DNA from: an uncultured Bacteroidota bacterium | GTDB taxonomy: Bacteria > Bacteroidota > Bacteroidia > 2-12-FULL-35-15 | DNA: 45,749 nt | Direction of reading: 5' to 3' | Assembly (NCBI GenBank): GCA_903870175.1 | Contig: CAIQBY010000260.1 | Location: 1 to 45,749, forward strand | Position numbers and translations under genes: made by a program | The notes under the pieces: generated by a model | Told to the model about the DNA's origin: nothing | Databases searched by the model: none | What the model saw: the letters and a program-made list of their open reading frames with translations, nothing else | In this document: positions 8,001 to 41,660 of the stretch, piece after piece | Layout: each line of letters opens with the position of its first letter | Numbering within the stretch: position 1 is the stretch's first letter

Positions 8001-8507
8001 AACAGGCACCAGCGCATACTTCAGATACTTTTTATTTTCCTTGAAATCAACGGCAGAAGTGAAAGGAATAGGTTTTAATTCTTTTGTTTTCTGATTGATG
8101 CTTGCCTCAATTAAGTTGAGAGTTGACAGTTGATAGTTGATAGTTGATTGCTGTTCCTGCAATTGAAGCACATTTAATAATTTATCCTGAACATTGCTGA
8201 AGTGCTTGCCTATTATGTTTGCGGCATCGGTATAAGAAATAATCCGACCCATTTTATAAAGATGTGAAACAGGAATTGCAATGTATTTTACAAATACAAA
8301 ACCAGTAGCGGCGACAAAGGAATAGAACAGCACAGTGCGCACGGCAATATTAAAATGAGCAAAATATTCGAGTGCTGTCACCGTCACGAAAAACAATAAT
8401 ATCAAGCCTACACTGTAAATCAAGCCGCGAAGCAGTTGATTTTTATAATACTTCCGGATAAACTCATCCAGCTTTTCCTTTAATGTCTGATAATTCGAAT
8501 TCGTCAT
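5088..8507 (-). CDS. DUF4175-family membrane-anchored coiled-coil protein
   Basis: The 1139-residue protein starts with two membrane segments (residues about 24-47 and 57-80) and has a third hydrophobic helix at about 163-185, matching the DUF4175 architecture. A long periplasmic or extracellular beta region follows. From about residue 520 to 780 it is extremely rich in Lys, Glu and Gln (for example KKEELQKKVENIKNENQE), a long predicted coiled coil, then a Gly/Pro/Lys-rich low-complexity stretch and a charged C-terminus. The function of the family is unknown. Residues about 118-134 (STINYQLSTLNLIE) come from a short tandem DNA repeat that appears to be an in-frame insertion (see findings). 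A predicted promoter box lies at 8551-8558. Confidence 0.85.
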   Translation of the reverse strand: MTNSNYQTLKEKLDEFIRKYYKNQLLRGLIYSVGLILLFFVTVTALEYFAHFNIAVRTVLFYSFVAATGFVFVKYIAIPVSHLYKMGRIISYTDAANIIGKHFSNVQDKLLNVLQLQEQQSTINYQLSTLNLIEASINQKTKELKPIPFTSAVDFKENKKYLKYALVPVLLITILLFAAPSIITDGTKRLVKHSEYFEKQAPFQFVITNPELKTVAQQDFELKVKLTGNEVPDNVYVEIEGNEFKLDKENSINFNYVFKNVQKNINFQLLADGFKSKEFELVALPNPILLNFDIALDYPAYLNKRNETIKNTGDLVIPAGTKVSWNFNTQNTKNIRLNFNDTSFAISPSSENAFNYSSRYFRDKTYSITTANQYLKSKDSVTYNINVIPDAYPQIVVEEKKDSNSTKRISFRGEVKDDYGFNRLTFNYRYITNNDTAATASEKNKKAEMHITPITINKAAIQDQFYHYWDMAELGVNAGDQIEYYFEIWDNDGVTGSKATRSQKMIFKAPSLKELAENTDKNNAKIKDDLIESIKQAKDVQKELTDLQRKVAEKKELNWEEKKKLQDLLDKQKELQKKVENIKNENQENNQKQNEYKQQDENILEKQKQLEELFDKVMTPELKEKYDELQKLLEKLDKDKVQDALDKIKLDNKDIMKELDRNLEIFKQMEVEQKLQQNIDKLNELAKKENEEAKKTEDKKSDAKEQKEKQDELNKQFDDLKKDMKDLEKKNSELEQPKKLENSEQKQEDIKKDMESGSEQLKSGQKKGASKSQKSAADKMEKMAAEMAKAKEKEEQEQAGEDADKLRQILENLIRVSFSQESLMGDFEKTKPCDPQIAKIDKQQKKLQDDSKMIEDSLLALSKRNPKIKETVNKEISAINMNMEKAVNKIELAAAPSMDGRNHKEEGRSRQQFAMTSVNNLALMLNESLNQMQEEAKQKNGPPGSGSCKKPGGKGSKPSASSLRKMQQQLNEQIKKLKEGMQKNGNKPGDKPGMAPGNGMSQELAKLAAQQAAIRQEIQKMGDQINKDGKGAGGMSKLADKMEETETDLVNKVISQETIRRQEEILTRLLESEKADKERELDEKRQSNEAKSENKRNQNQFLEYNRLKQKETELLKTVPASLNPFYKEKVNLYFNNIEN

Positions 8508-11150: not shown

Positions 11151-11267
11151 ATTTTGCTTTAATGATTATTTATTTGGGAGATTAGATAAAGATTATTGTT
11201 TATGATTTTTTACAAAGCAGTTTGCCAATTCAATTATTACTTAATACCTTATTTCACTTTTACCTCG

Positions 11268-11632
11268 ACTCATTTCTTTTTGATAAAAACTCATTAGTTG
11301 GTTATCAAAACTAATTGGTTTTTATGCTCGCCTCGTTGCTTTTTATTCTTTACTCAACCCTTTTTTTGCTCAGCTCAAACCTTATTACCCTCAGCTCATT
11401 GGTTTTTGTGCTTTACTCGGTAGTTTTTGCCCAAAACTCCCGAGTAAATGGCATTTACTCCCGAGCTTTTCGTCATTTACTCCTGAGTAAACCCGTTTTA
11501 CTCCCGAGTAAAGTGCTTTTACTCCTGAGTTTTGGCTCCAAACCAATGAGTAAAGCATCAAAACTACCGAGTTGCGGTCAAACACCTGTAAACATTGAAG
11601 AAAATGATTTGAGTTTTGACCCAAAACCTTAA
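11268..11632. repeat. Array A: degenerate tandem repeat with 21-bp period
   Basis: Successive copies begin at 11268, 11289, 11310, 11331, 11352, 11373, 11394, 11415, 11436, 11457, 11479, 11500, 11521, 11542, 11563, 11584 and 11605. Every step is 21 bp except one of 22. The most regular copies read ACTCCCGAGT or ACTCCTGAGT followed by a T-rich spacer; TTTACTCCCGAGTAAA is a perfect dyad apart from its two central bases. Outer copies are more diverged (ACTCATTAG, GCTCAAACC, ACTACCGAG); a weaker copy may start at 11247. The overlapping open frames of 105 and 77 codons are by-products of a period divisible by three. There is no gene within the array; 11633-11795 holds nothing recognisable. Confidence 0.85.
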
Positions 11633-23567: not shown

Positions 23568-23642
23568 TTTATTATTTATTTAATTGTTATTACTATTATT
23601 ATTAACTCTTTTTCCGTTTTATTAAATTACTTTATTTTATTC

Positions 23643-23852
23643 GGGAGTTCCCTGTTTTTATTTGGGAGCTCCTGTTTTTAAAAAGGGACTTCCCGTTTTT
23701 TATTCAGGAGTTCCTGTTTTTTAAAAGGGAGTTCCCTGTTTTTATTTAGGAGCTCAAGTTTTTAAAAAGGGAGTTCCCGTTTTTTATTTGGGAGCTCCTT
23801 TATTTTATTTGGGAGTTCCTGTTTTTTAAAATTGCCTCCGATTATTTTTACT
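23643..23852. repeat. Array B: degenerate tandem repeat with exact 21-bp period
   Basis: Copies start at 23643, 23664, 23685, 23706, 23727, 23748, 23769, 23790 and 23811, with a decayed tenth at 23832. All steps are exactly 21 bp. The core is GGGAGYTCCY, nearly self-complementary (GGGAGTTCCC, GGGAGCTCC), followed by GTTTTT. Copies alternate between ATTT-type spacers (1, 3, 5, 7) and AAAA-type spacers (2, 4, 6), a 42-bp higher order; the first and fifth copies are identical. The array lies between a predicted minus-strand promoter (23881-23888) and the start codon at 23567, so it is probably transcribed as a leader. The remainder of 23568-23933 is plain AT-rich sequence. Confidence 0.92.
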
Positions 23853-23880
23853 TTCAAAACCTTCAATGACCTTAACACGA

Positions 23881-38997: not shown

Positions 38998-39048
38998 TCA
39001 ATTTAGAATTTAGAAATTAGTATTTAGAATTTCCATTCTAAAACTTAA

Positions 39049-40328: not shown

Positions 40329-40364
40329 AAAGAATCCCGTTCTTTTTCAATAACGGGATTCTTT
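40329..40364 (-). terminator. Terminator directly abutting array C
   Basis: A perfect 13-bp stem (AAAGAATCCCGTT / AACGGGATTCTTT) with a 10-base loop; on the minus strand it is followed by GTTTTTGG. The first array C copy begins at 40365, the very next base, so a transcript of 40502-41440 would carry the whole array as its 3' untranslated region. Confidence 0.8.
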
Positions 40365-40511
40365 AAGGTAATGTCGAAGATTTTTGTGGTAAAAACTTAA
40401 ATTTCTGTGGTAATCTTCAAAAATTCCGTGGTAAAAACTTCATTTTTTGTGGTAGAATTTTAAAATTCTTTGGTAAAAACATAGTTTTTCTTCATCAAAA
40501 CTTAGTTATTC
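40365..40511. repeat. Array C: degenerate tandem repeat with exact 21-bp period
   Basis: Copies begin at 40365, 40386, 40407, 40428, 40449, 40470 and 40491, all exactly 21 bp apart. The core is GTGGTA, usually GTGGTAAAAACTT, followed by a T-rich end (TTTCT, TTTTT). Odd full copies (40386, 40428, 40470) share TGGTAAAAAC while even ones (40407, 40449) have GTGGTAATC or GTGGTAGAA, a 42-bp alternation. The last copy overlaps the stop codon of the gene at 40502. The core differs completely from those of arrays A and B, but period and layout are the same. Confidence 0.9.
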
Positions 40512-41440
40512 ATATAACTCATTTGGCAAGTTACTGTTAAACTTGGGTTATTAATTGTCATTGTCGTATAACCTTTTTCAACTTGCCAGTGGTCGCCTGC
40601 AACAATAACGATAGGTGTTCCGGTTCCTTTTGCACCTTTGGTAATTGTAAGCGGCACGGTTCCTGTATTTTGAATAATGCTTCCGGCAACTACAGAATAT
40701 AATATTTTGGTGCCGCCCATTTTAAATTTGGCAATAGTTAATTTAGCACCTTTTGGAGTACTGTCAATCACAAATCCCCAATCGCCACCACTTTTTGGTG
40801 TAAGCGGAAACTGTGAAACAATAAATCCGCCTGTGCCACGCAAATCTTCAAATACAGGTGCTATTGCTGCATCGCGTTTTTCGCAAAGCGATTTACTCTG
40901 TTTTTCGGCAGCCAAAAAGTCAGTATTGTTTTGCTTAATATCAGTCAATGCATCAAGGTTAGCTGCCAAATCAATTTTGTTTTGAGATAAAAAAGTAGCG
41001 GTAATAGCCCTTGTGCCTGCCGGTAACGAATTATTGTAATTAATCAATTCAGCAATTGCTGCGCAAATTTCAGCTCTGTCGGTAGGGTACACAATTTTAT
41101 TGCCTTCCACCTTTATGCCATAGTCGCCAAGCGTTTTCACTGTTTTGGCATAAAACTTTTTAAGCATCTGCACCATTAATTTATGATCTTTAAATACAGG
41201 ATTTAACCCTACTTCGCACAGTTCGAGCAGCTTTTTAGAGTTTTTGGTAGATGCATCAAACTGAGTGTTTAATTTAACTGCCTCAATTACTGCTGTTGCA
41301 TTTATACCCATATCAATCTTTTGCTGAGCGAAGTAAGGAATAAGGATGCTGCCGGCGCCGTCTTTCGTGTTTTTGTCATTCGTGTTTGTGAACAAAGTTA
41401 CTTTGCCCTCAAATGTAATCGGTAATACAATTCTTGCCAT
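40502..41440 (-). CDS. Unknown two-part protein associated with array C
   Basis: The 312 residues have no signal peptide or membrane segment. Residues about 30-190 look all-helical (AAVIEAVKLNTQFDASTKNS, KFYAKTVKTLGDYGIKV, ALTDIKQNNTDFLAAEKQSK). The last 110 are beta-rich (GDWGFVIDSTPKGAKLTIAK, IQNTGTVPLTITKGAKGTG, VIVAGDHWQVEKGYTTMTI) and suggest a beta-sandwich or Ig-like end. There is no catalytic motif. I do not recognise a named family. It is a single-gene minus-strand unit with a terminator-like hairpin in its upstream region, array C immediately after the stop codon and then a terminator. It occupies an accessory segment between HU and mutY. Confidence 0.75.
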   Translation of the reverse strand: MARIVLPITFEGKVTLFTNTNDKNTKDGAGSILIPYFAQQKIDMGINATAVIEAVKLNTQFDASTKNSKKLLELCEVGLNPVFKDHKLMVQMLKKFYAKTVKTLGDYGIKVEGNKIVYPTDRAEICAAIAELINYNNSLPAGTRAITATFLSQNKIDLAANLDALTDIKQNNTDFLAAEKQSKSLCEKRDAAIAPVFEDLRGTGGFIVSQFPLTPKSGGDWGFVIDSTPKGAKLTIAKFKMGGTKILYSVVAGSIIQNTGTVPLTITKGAKGTGTPIVIVAGDHWQVEKGYTTMTINNPSLTVTCQMSYMNN

Positions 41441-41508
41441 GATTTTTTTGATTTAGTGTTTAATTATTAGAATTTAAAATTTATTTTATTAAAGTTTGGG
41501 CAATAAAA

Positions 41509-41539
41509 AAGCCACCTAACCTTCGGGTACAGGCGGCTT
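41509..41539 (-). terminator. Terminator-like hairpin upstream of the array C gene
   Basis: Arms AAGCCACCT and AGGCGGCTT with an inner ACC/GGT helix and a 4-base loop; on the minus strand it is followed by TTTTTTATTG. It lies before, not after, the minus-strand CDS starting at 41440. It may end a short upstream RNA or act as an attenuator for that gene. Confidence 0.65.
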
Positions 41540-41578
41540 ACAGCTACTTATGTTTTCTTTTGATTACTCCATTCAACT

Positions 41579-41603
41579 ATTTAGTACGCCGAAATTACTA
41601 AAT
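41579..41603. promoter_or_regulatory. Dyad ATTTAGTA-N9-TACTAAAT between mutY and the array C gene
   Basis: A perfect 8-bp inverted repeat with a 9-base centre. A further TTACTAA lies 20 bases from the right arm, at 41615. It may be an operator or part of a small structured RNA that ends at the hairpin at 41509-41539. Confidence 0.35.
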
Positions 41604-41660
41604 AATGGCCGCATTTACTAATTTATAAAATATTAGAATTTAAAAACTGATATTTGCCCG

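Follow-up and report, generated by a model that had tools for sequence, protein, structure and literature searches.

Iteron arrays and plasmid or chromosomal partition (centromere-like) arrays consist of direct repeats of about two helical turns that lie beside the gene of their cognate protein. In the type III toxin-antitoxin systems (ToxIN, CptIN), as described in the portion of that literature drawn on here, a single protein gene is found by a non-coding tandem array with a terminator, in the order array, terminator, and then toxin gene. CRISPR arrays combine a repeated block with a variable remainder. Among other direct repeats, the TAACTGA heptamers are abundant and intergenic in Beggiatoaceae and some Bacteroidetes; the sections of that report considered here present a single invariant 7-nt sequence that lies chiefly ahead of start codons in the main genome, and mention no companion protein family (PMC4679880). 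A survey of close direct repeats in prokaryotic genomes found clustered ones to be over-represented and partly intergenic and, in the sections considered here, classes the patterns by length and gap, with no 21-bp rule or companion gene (PMC4060949).

The locus described here lies in a 45,749-nucleotide stretch of DNA from an uncultured Bacteroidota bacterium (the whole stretch is termed the window), in which the gene for a 312-aa protein is followed by an array of 21-nt direct repeats. The locus resembles the iteron and partition arrays in its repeats of about two turns, its whole-turn spacing (periods of 21, 42, and 63), its locus-specific sequence, and its neighboring protein gene; it differs in that no initiator or Par-type domain was found, the binding of a partner is putative, many arrays occur per chromosome, and the array changes in sequence even where the protein remains similar. 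With the type III systems, as so described, it shares a single protein gene by a non-coding tandem array plus terminator, but the units are 21 nt long, a terminator precedes the gene with no array ahead of it, and the array follows the gene in every usable locus of this protein family (family C; 18/18), so the type III order does not apply. The units, of about 7 + 14 nt at an exact 21-nt pitch, also have a repeated block and a variable remainder, yet they contain no separate long spacer, and no cas match was found among the ten window proteins scanned, which sets the array apart from CRISPR. Like the TAACTGA repeats, these are abundant intergenic direct repeats in bacteria that include Bacteroidetes; pooled identity between array units, however, was 0.67 at lag 21 and 0.30 at lag 7, with next to no 7-nt substructure, and the heptamer class was rejected. 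Arrays of 21 bp with a companion gene were absent from the titles and abstract openings of the open literature, subscription papers and preprints lying outside this search. The sequence comparisons reported below suggest that a gene paired with a period-21 DNA array in some environmental Bacteroidia constitutes an undescribed module.

Results

Layout of the module

A previous sequence-only reading had described this region as a cassette of five abutting parts. All five are present on the minus strand (Table 1), and array C adjoins the stop codon as that reading held, whereas the upstream hairpin and the start codon do not abut, being separated by a gap of 68 nt. The CDS product, said to lack a known identity, indeed had no match in Pfam or NCBIfam. 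The dyad sits where it had been placed; however, the window contains 38 perfect 8-bp inverted repeats with loops of 3 to 12, so it is within chance and was rejected as a feature of the module.

Table 1. Positions of the module parts and of other repeats in the window
Feature	Position	Strand	Remarks
Dyad ATTTAGTA-N9-TACTAAAT	41579-41603	-	8-bp arms, 9-nt loop; background level
Intrinsic-terminator-like hairpin with T6, before the CDS	41509-41539	-	putative leader or insulator; followed by ATTGCCCAAACT, common to L002
CDS, 312 aa	40502-41440	-	predicted: residues 1-230, two helical repeats; 231-312, cupin-like beta domain
Array C	40367-40492	-	six 21-nt direct repeats; TTACC(A) block in common, rest variable
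Terminator-like hairpin right behind array C	40329-40364	-	strong
Array B	23593-23867		units GGGAACTCCC / GGAGCTCC; directly upstream of the 239-aa gene
Gene, 239 aa	22848-23567	-	
Array A	11242-11582		about 15 degenerate 21-nt units
7-nt tandem repeat TTTAGAA	36256-36308		short
7-nt tandem repeat AATTTAG	39000-39032		short
7-nt tandem repeat AGTTGAT	8114-8148		short

The self-match of array C peaked at 0.61 for lag 21 and at 0.74 for lag 42, and the terminator behind it has 16-nt arms that are 94% complementary. The whole window holds four period-21 arrays, compared to none in 40 dinucleotide shuffles, and a scan at periods from 10 to 63 detected arrays only at 21, 42, and 63. Short 7-nt tandem repeats occur besides these. 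Array A is flanked by a gene that by eye is TonB-receptor-like and by a secreted-peptidase-like gene (732 aa), neighbors that include no small helical protein.

Predicted structure of the 312-aa protein

The AlphaFold2 model of the protein (mean pLDDT of 92.1) predicts two repeats, each made of a strand, a helix, a short helix, a 53-residue helix, another short helix, and a hairpin, followed by a beta domain. Residues 232-312 of the model resemble domains of the cupin or double-stranded beta-helix type (Z as high as 9.7; 75 residues, 2.5 Å), and the cupins of CENP-C and Mif2 are among the structural matches of this C-terminal domain (Z of about 8). The helical part (residues 1-230) was modeled with a pLDDT of 93.9; against the PDB it gave no match better than E 0.09, and its Z values of 8.4 or lower represent helical-bundle background; the absence of a named fold among these PDB matches does not establish a new fold. 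Pfam and PDB searches revealed no DNA-binding fold or motif, Pfam and PDB sequences provided no match to Rep, ParA, ParB, or ParR, and nothing in the predicted model identifies a nucleic-acid-binding surface. There was likewise no family match to a ToxN-like endoribonuclease; the prediction is a helical bundle with a cupin-like domain. On the basis of this model, the encoded protein is probably rod-like and oligomeric.

The hairpin upstream of the gene

The hairpin before the CDS has a GC-rich stem followed by a T run, consistent with its earlier description as an intrinsic terminator, and there is no upstream gene for it to terminate. Its pattern gave one match in the window against zero expected from shuffles. 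A generic terminator scan with a maximum loop of 8 missed both this hairpin, whose loop, at about 13, is longer than the scan allows, and the 3' terminator. A paralogue in the same genome (L002), found by search and with 28% protein identity to the window protein, has the same element 95 nt ahead of its start codon. The stems of the two hairpins are ACCGCCTT/AAGGTGGT in L002 against GCCGCCT/AGGTGGC in the window; the loop differs, the stem of L002 has a G-C to A-U change, the T run is kept, and the 12-nt tail ATTGCCCAAACT is identical. The 3.95-Mb assembly has exactly two copies of the pattern TTTTTATTGCCCAAACT, each lying before a member of this gene family.

A strong upstream terminator was found in 4/19 family members with upstream sequence, compared to 7/400 random 250-nt stretches. 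Only the window copy and L002 share the hairpin sequence among these four, the other two differing in sequence, and in 29 other genomes of the genus the mutY site had no match to the hairpin and its tail. The proposal that the hairpin is a defining part of the module was thus not borne out, its sequence being kept only in the paralogue. Two sequences are too few for a covariance model, and an Rfam search with the hairpin returned sub-threshold matches only (best E 1.2), leading us to reject a known RNA. Folding of the leader was unremarkable (z -1.67), with only the terminator evident. By the Bacteroidetes promoter consensus, L002 has a candidate promoter ahead of its hairpin (TTG-N19-TATATTTG), and the window has one behind its own (TTG-N17-TAAATTTT); because the candidates fall on both sides, sequence alone does not favor any one of a small RNA, attenuation, and insulation. 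These comparisons make a convincing case that the upstream hairpin is a real terminator added locally to two copies, and it is best read as a putative leader terminator or insulator of the window and L002 copies.

Pairing of gene and array

A 21-nt array was located downstream of the stop codon in 18/18 family-C genes with downstream sequence. The array starts between -33 and +46 nt from the stop codon in 17 of these loci, and that of L004 starts at +245, as set by the detection threshold. An array in this downstream position accompanies 33/851 other genes of the sampled genomes (3.9%), the counts by sample being 9/126, 0/315, 12/290, 10/67, and 2/53. The 18 loci are full or 3'-complete members from about 11 genomes, several of them sharing genomes, with five loci from G299. 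Five loci at contig ends that offered no usable downstream sequence (L105, from Parafilimonas terrae, L028, L034, L035, and L036) were left out, and we dropped L021 and L030, which are cut by contig ends, L031, which is the same place as L022, L023, a false hit in what appears by eye to be a cytochrome-like frame, and L112, a relative with no adjacent array. Each family-C array has its own unit sequence, different at every locus. By these comparisons, gene plus array appears well supported as the lasting, conserved unit of the module; the sequence-only reading, which correctly saw the module as compact and accessory, had underrated both this conserved pair and the genome-wide 21-nt period.

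Within a protein family, the array keeps to one side of the gene. It is downstream in family C and upstream in the single-module relatives of family C; for homologues of the 239-aa gene beside array B (family B), it is upstream in 11/17 loci (own locus included) and downstream in none. Two loci in which the gene was probably mis-picked (L170 and L175) are kept among these 17. The fixed side, together with the 18/18 association against a background of 3.9%, argues against neutral tandem-repeat expansion, in which genome-wide slippage or repair would make 21-bp duplications that collect by accessory genes in permissive intergenic sites. In favor of that explanation, many arrays adjoin ordinary genes, housekeeping genes included, with no such protein.

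Array-flanking ORFs numbered 98/996 in the samples. The protein clusters that recur beside arrays, in samples containing stretches picked for holding family C, are all small and hypothetical (family C, 7/7; two others, 2/2 each; and one, 2/3). Remote homology of the other array-flanking proteins to family C was rejected, as hhalign probabilities outside the family were 2.5 or lower. Small hypothetical proteins also adjoin 21-nt arrays at L041, L049, L078, L079, L081, L084, and L092 and may represent companion families; some of them have FN3- or Ig-like tails, as judged by eye. The NCBIfam model PQLLE (NF052641) matched P0001 and the L078 protein with an E of 0.0003, far under its cut-off, and is a lead only.

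Insertion site and distribution

In the window, about 2.3 kb lie between mutY and hup, occupied by the CDS, array C, and a DUF3575-like gene. In 16 of the 29 other genomes of the genus with a mutY locus, the distance from mutY to the start of hup (identified from the N-terminal sequence) is 141-279 nt, and the CDS is absent from the site in all 29. This comparison indicates that the module is inserted between mutY and hup, in agreement with its earlier description as a compact accessory element between conserved genes. At the corresponding position beside mutY, the nearest relative (G020; MutY 87% identical) carries an unrelated array of about 15 units of 21 nt and lacks the CDS, an arrangement that neutral expansion would also produce. 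That array lies upstream of mutY (locus L136, G020:C418) and has the unit ATAATGGTTAGTAACTTGGGG. The mutY site thus appears to acquire arrays and modules time and again.

Homologues were detected in 3/36 genomes of the order, all of one genus, when searching with the single protein, and in 5/36 with a profile. The class sample yielded 15/395, partial and distant matches included, and the phylum sample 1/395, the own genome only. Named relatives of the CDS product include those of Parafilimonas terrae and several Bacteroidia and Flavobacteriales MAGs. Such a patchy distribution (3/36 with the single protein, 1/395 in the phylum), along with the insertion between mutY and hup, is consistent with a mobile cassette that spreads by site-specific insertion and has the array as its remnant or active end. 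We consider this explanation improbable, however, given that no recombinase was found among the 10 window proteins scanned, phage, plasmid, and viral collections contained no relative of the protein, and no end sequence common to the arrays was seen.

Period 21 across genomes

Array-blind stretches of the own genome (189.9 kb, window included) contain 12 arrays of period 21 and 14 of period 42; the window gives 4 of the 12 period-21 arrays, leaving 8 in 144,151 bases. In 380 kb of array-blind sequence from a genome of another family of the class, we found 14 arrays of period 21 and 21 of period 42, and in the array-blind stretches each remaining period between 10 and 49 yielded only 0 to 4 arrays. 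A length of 21 bp corresponds to two turns of B-DNA. Superperiods of 42 and 63 are common among the arrays and fit block duplication, which, like the large number of arrays, favors neutral expansion. Abundance varies strongly, as 380 kb of a same-genus genome (G014) hold a single 21-nt array that lies within a reading frame. That same sequence (L057-L075, G014:C7), though nearly devoid of 21-nt arrays, carries three arrays of period 25.

Intergenic positions account for 53/56 classified arrays, with the neighboring genes in tandem (20), convergent (11), or divergent (11) orientation or the array at a stretch end (11), compared to background settings of 190 tandem, 53 convergent, and 92 divergent. 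The classified set shows no strong promoter-like or terminator-like orientation.

What the arrays keep

Identity in 45 divergent arrays decreased from 0.59 to 0.45 over lags 21 to 147, whereas one-base-off lags were flat at 0.30-0.32. When we simulated indel:substitution ratios of at least 0.01, the off-register lags rose, unlike those of the real arrays. These results are supportive, not proof, of arrays that hold register with almost no indels, because period-21 detection within windows favors in-register arrays. Register is maintained at 40-55% unit divergence. Conservation within the unit is blocky (lag-1 autocorrelation of 0.098, s.e. 0.036, versus a null of -0.05), and the family-C units share a layout beyond their dinucleotide content (3.98 versus 3.42, sd 0.11 bits, z 5.3); a shared layout was also detected in 59 other arrays (z 3.0).

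Array similarity was 0.49 at 92% protein identity, 0.62 at 79%, and 0.39 at 73%, with a background of 0.40, and a comparison with protein similarity (Mantel 96 of 2000) revealed a relation only among the closest pairs. The letters of the array are therefore replaced far more rapidly than the protein changes, and sequence-specific recognition is unlikely because array similarity is already at background at 73% protein identity. Fast turnover is also what neutral expansion predicts, but the register kept at such divergence and the unit layout in common speak against it; weighing these with the evidence on pairing, we judge a purely neutral origin to be unlikely.

What the arrays are not

Unit variation in 49 arrays carried no codon-position signal (mod-3 contrast of 0.146 versus 0.150 when permuted; 4/49 with p<0.05), and coding heptads were rejected on this basis. 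Predicted curvature was not raised in the 18 family-C arrays (mean z 0.38, s.e. 0.23) or in 59 other arrays (mean z 0.03, s.e. 0.11), which led us to reject intrinsically curved DNA. Dyad symmetry had a mean z of 0.65, and with only 10/62 arrays above 2 they are not universally dyad-symmetric sites. A tie between the two-module protein and the 42-nt superperiod was rejected as well, the per-array self-match scores following no such rule. At L033 (2506-2827), L111 (6027-6258), and L015 (2488-2761), the array orientation flips midway, and the centers are long near-perfect inverted repeats, variable parts included.

The array might alternatively function as RNA, being transcribed as an mRNA 3' tail or processed RNA and bound by the protein in the manner of a CsrB-like sponge or a type III toxin-antitoxin system. 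In the window and in L002 the array adjoins the stop codon and has a terminator at its end. Across 52 arrays, RNA folding was stronger than in shuffles (mean dinucleotide z of -2.26) and depended on unit order in 13/52; some arrays fold far better than their shuffles, and L015, L033, and L111 hold long inverted halves. Given this predicted excess, some arrays may have an RNA structure or RNA role. Array C, in contrast, displayed no excess fold (z -0.02; unit-order z -0.33) and was rejected as a structured RNA, and the terminator scan placed a strong terminator behind only 5/18 family-C arrays. Relative to the gene, the assigned strand of the shared family-C layout is mixed (7 sense, 11 antisense), which fits DNA better than RNA. 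The array is upstream in other families, and an exact period of 21 comes naturally to B-DNA but not to RNA. We accordingly doubt that RNA is the active form of these arrays.

Discussion

The module itself is well supported: the comparisons show the pairing, the fixed 21/42/63-nt period, the lack of a codon signal, the kept register, the rapid change of unit sequence, and the insertion between mutY and hup. From these we infer a mechanism. Our preferred reading, to which we assign a probability of roughly 0.4, is an accessory module in which the gene for a rod-like, probably oligomeric protein is paired with a cis direct-repeat array that is locked to a 21-bp pitch and acts as DNA. A DNA lattice is the simplest reading because it fits the fixed two-turn pitch, the kept register, the free sequence, the mixing of strands, and the variable side. 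The array would work as helically phased, double-stranded DNA, so that at every second turn the conserved block of a unit would face the same side of the helix. Assembly along this lattice, guided more by spacing than by sequence, would fall to the encoded protein or to a partner that it recruits, and the two stacked helical modules and the cupin-like, probable oligomerization domain of the protein would serve this assembly. An autoregulatory or chromosome-organizing complex would be the likely outcome. In the window copy, the upstream hairpin would restrict transcription into the gene, in the role of a leader terminator or an insulator, and the hairpin behind the array would end the transcript. 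RNA function and neutral expansion, discussed above, remain serious rivals to this DNA lattice.

More broadly, and more tentatively, these Bacteroidia might carry genome-wide, period-locked arrays in which selection or a dedicated copying process acts on the 21-bp pitch rather than on sequence, with families of small helical proteins as dedicated partners of a lattice that is read by its spacing. Within the literature covered here, no chromosomal element of this kind is described. These findings raise the question of what reads or makes a 21-bp period regardless of its letters. If the pairing is functional, it would define a class of gene-plus-DNA element that is invisible to ordinary annotation, because the array has a different sequence at each locus and retains only its pitch, and it would provide a name and a test for groups of uncharacterized proteins of the Bacteroidia.
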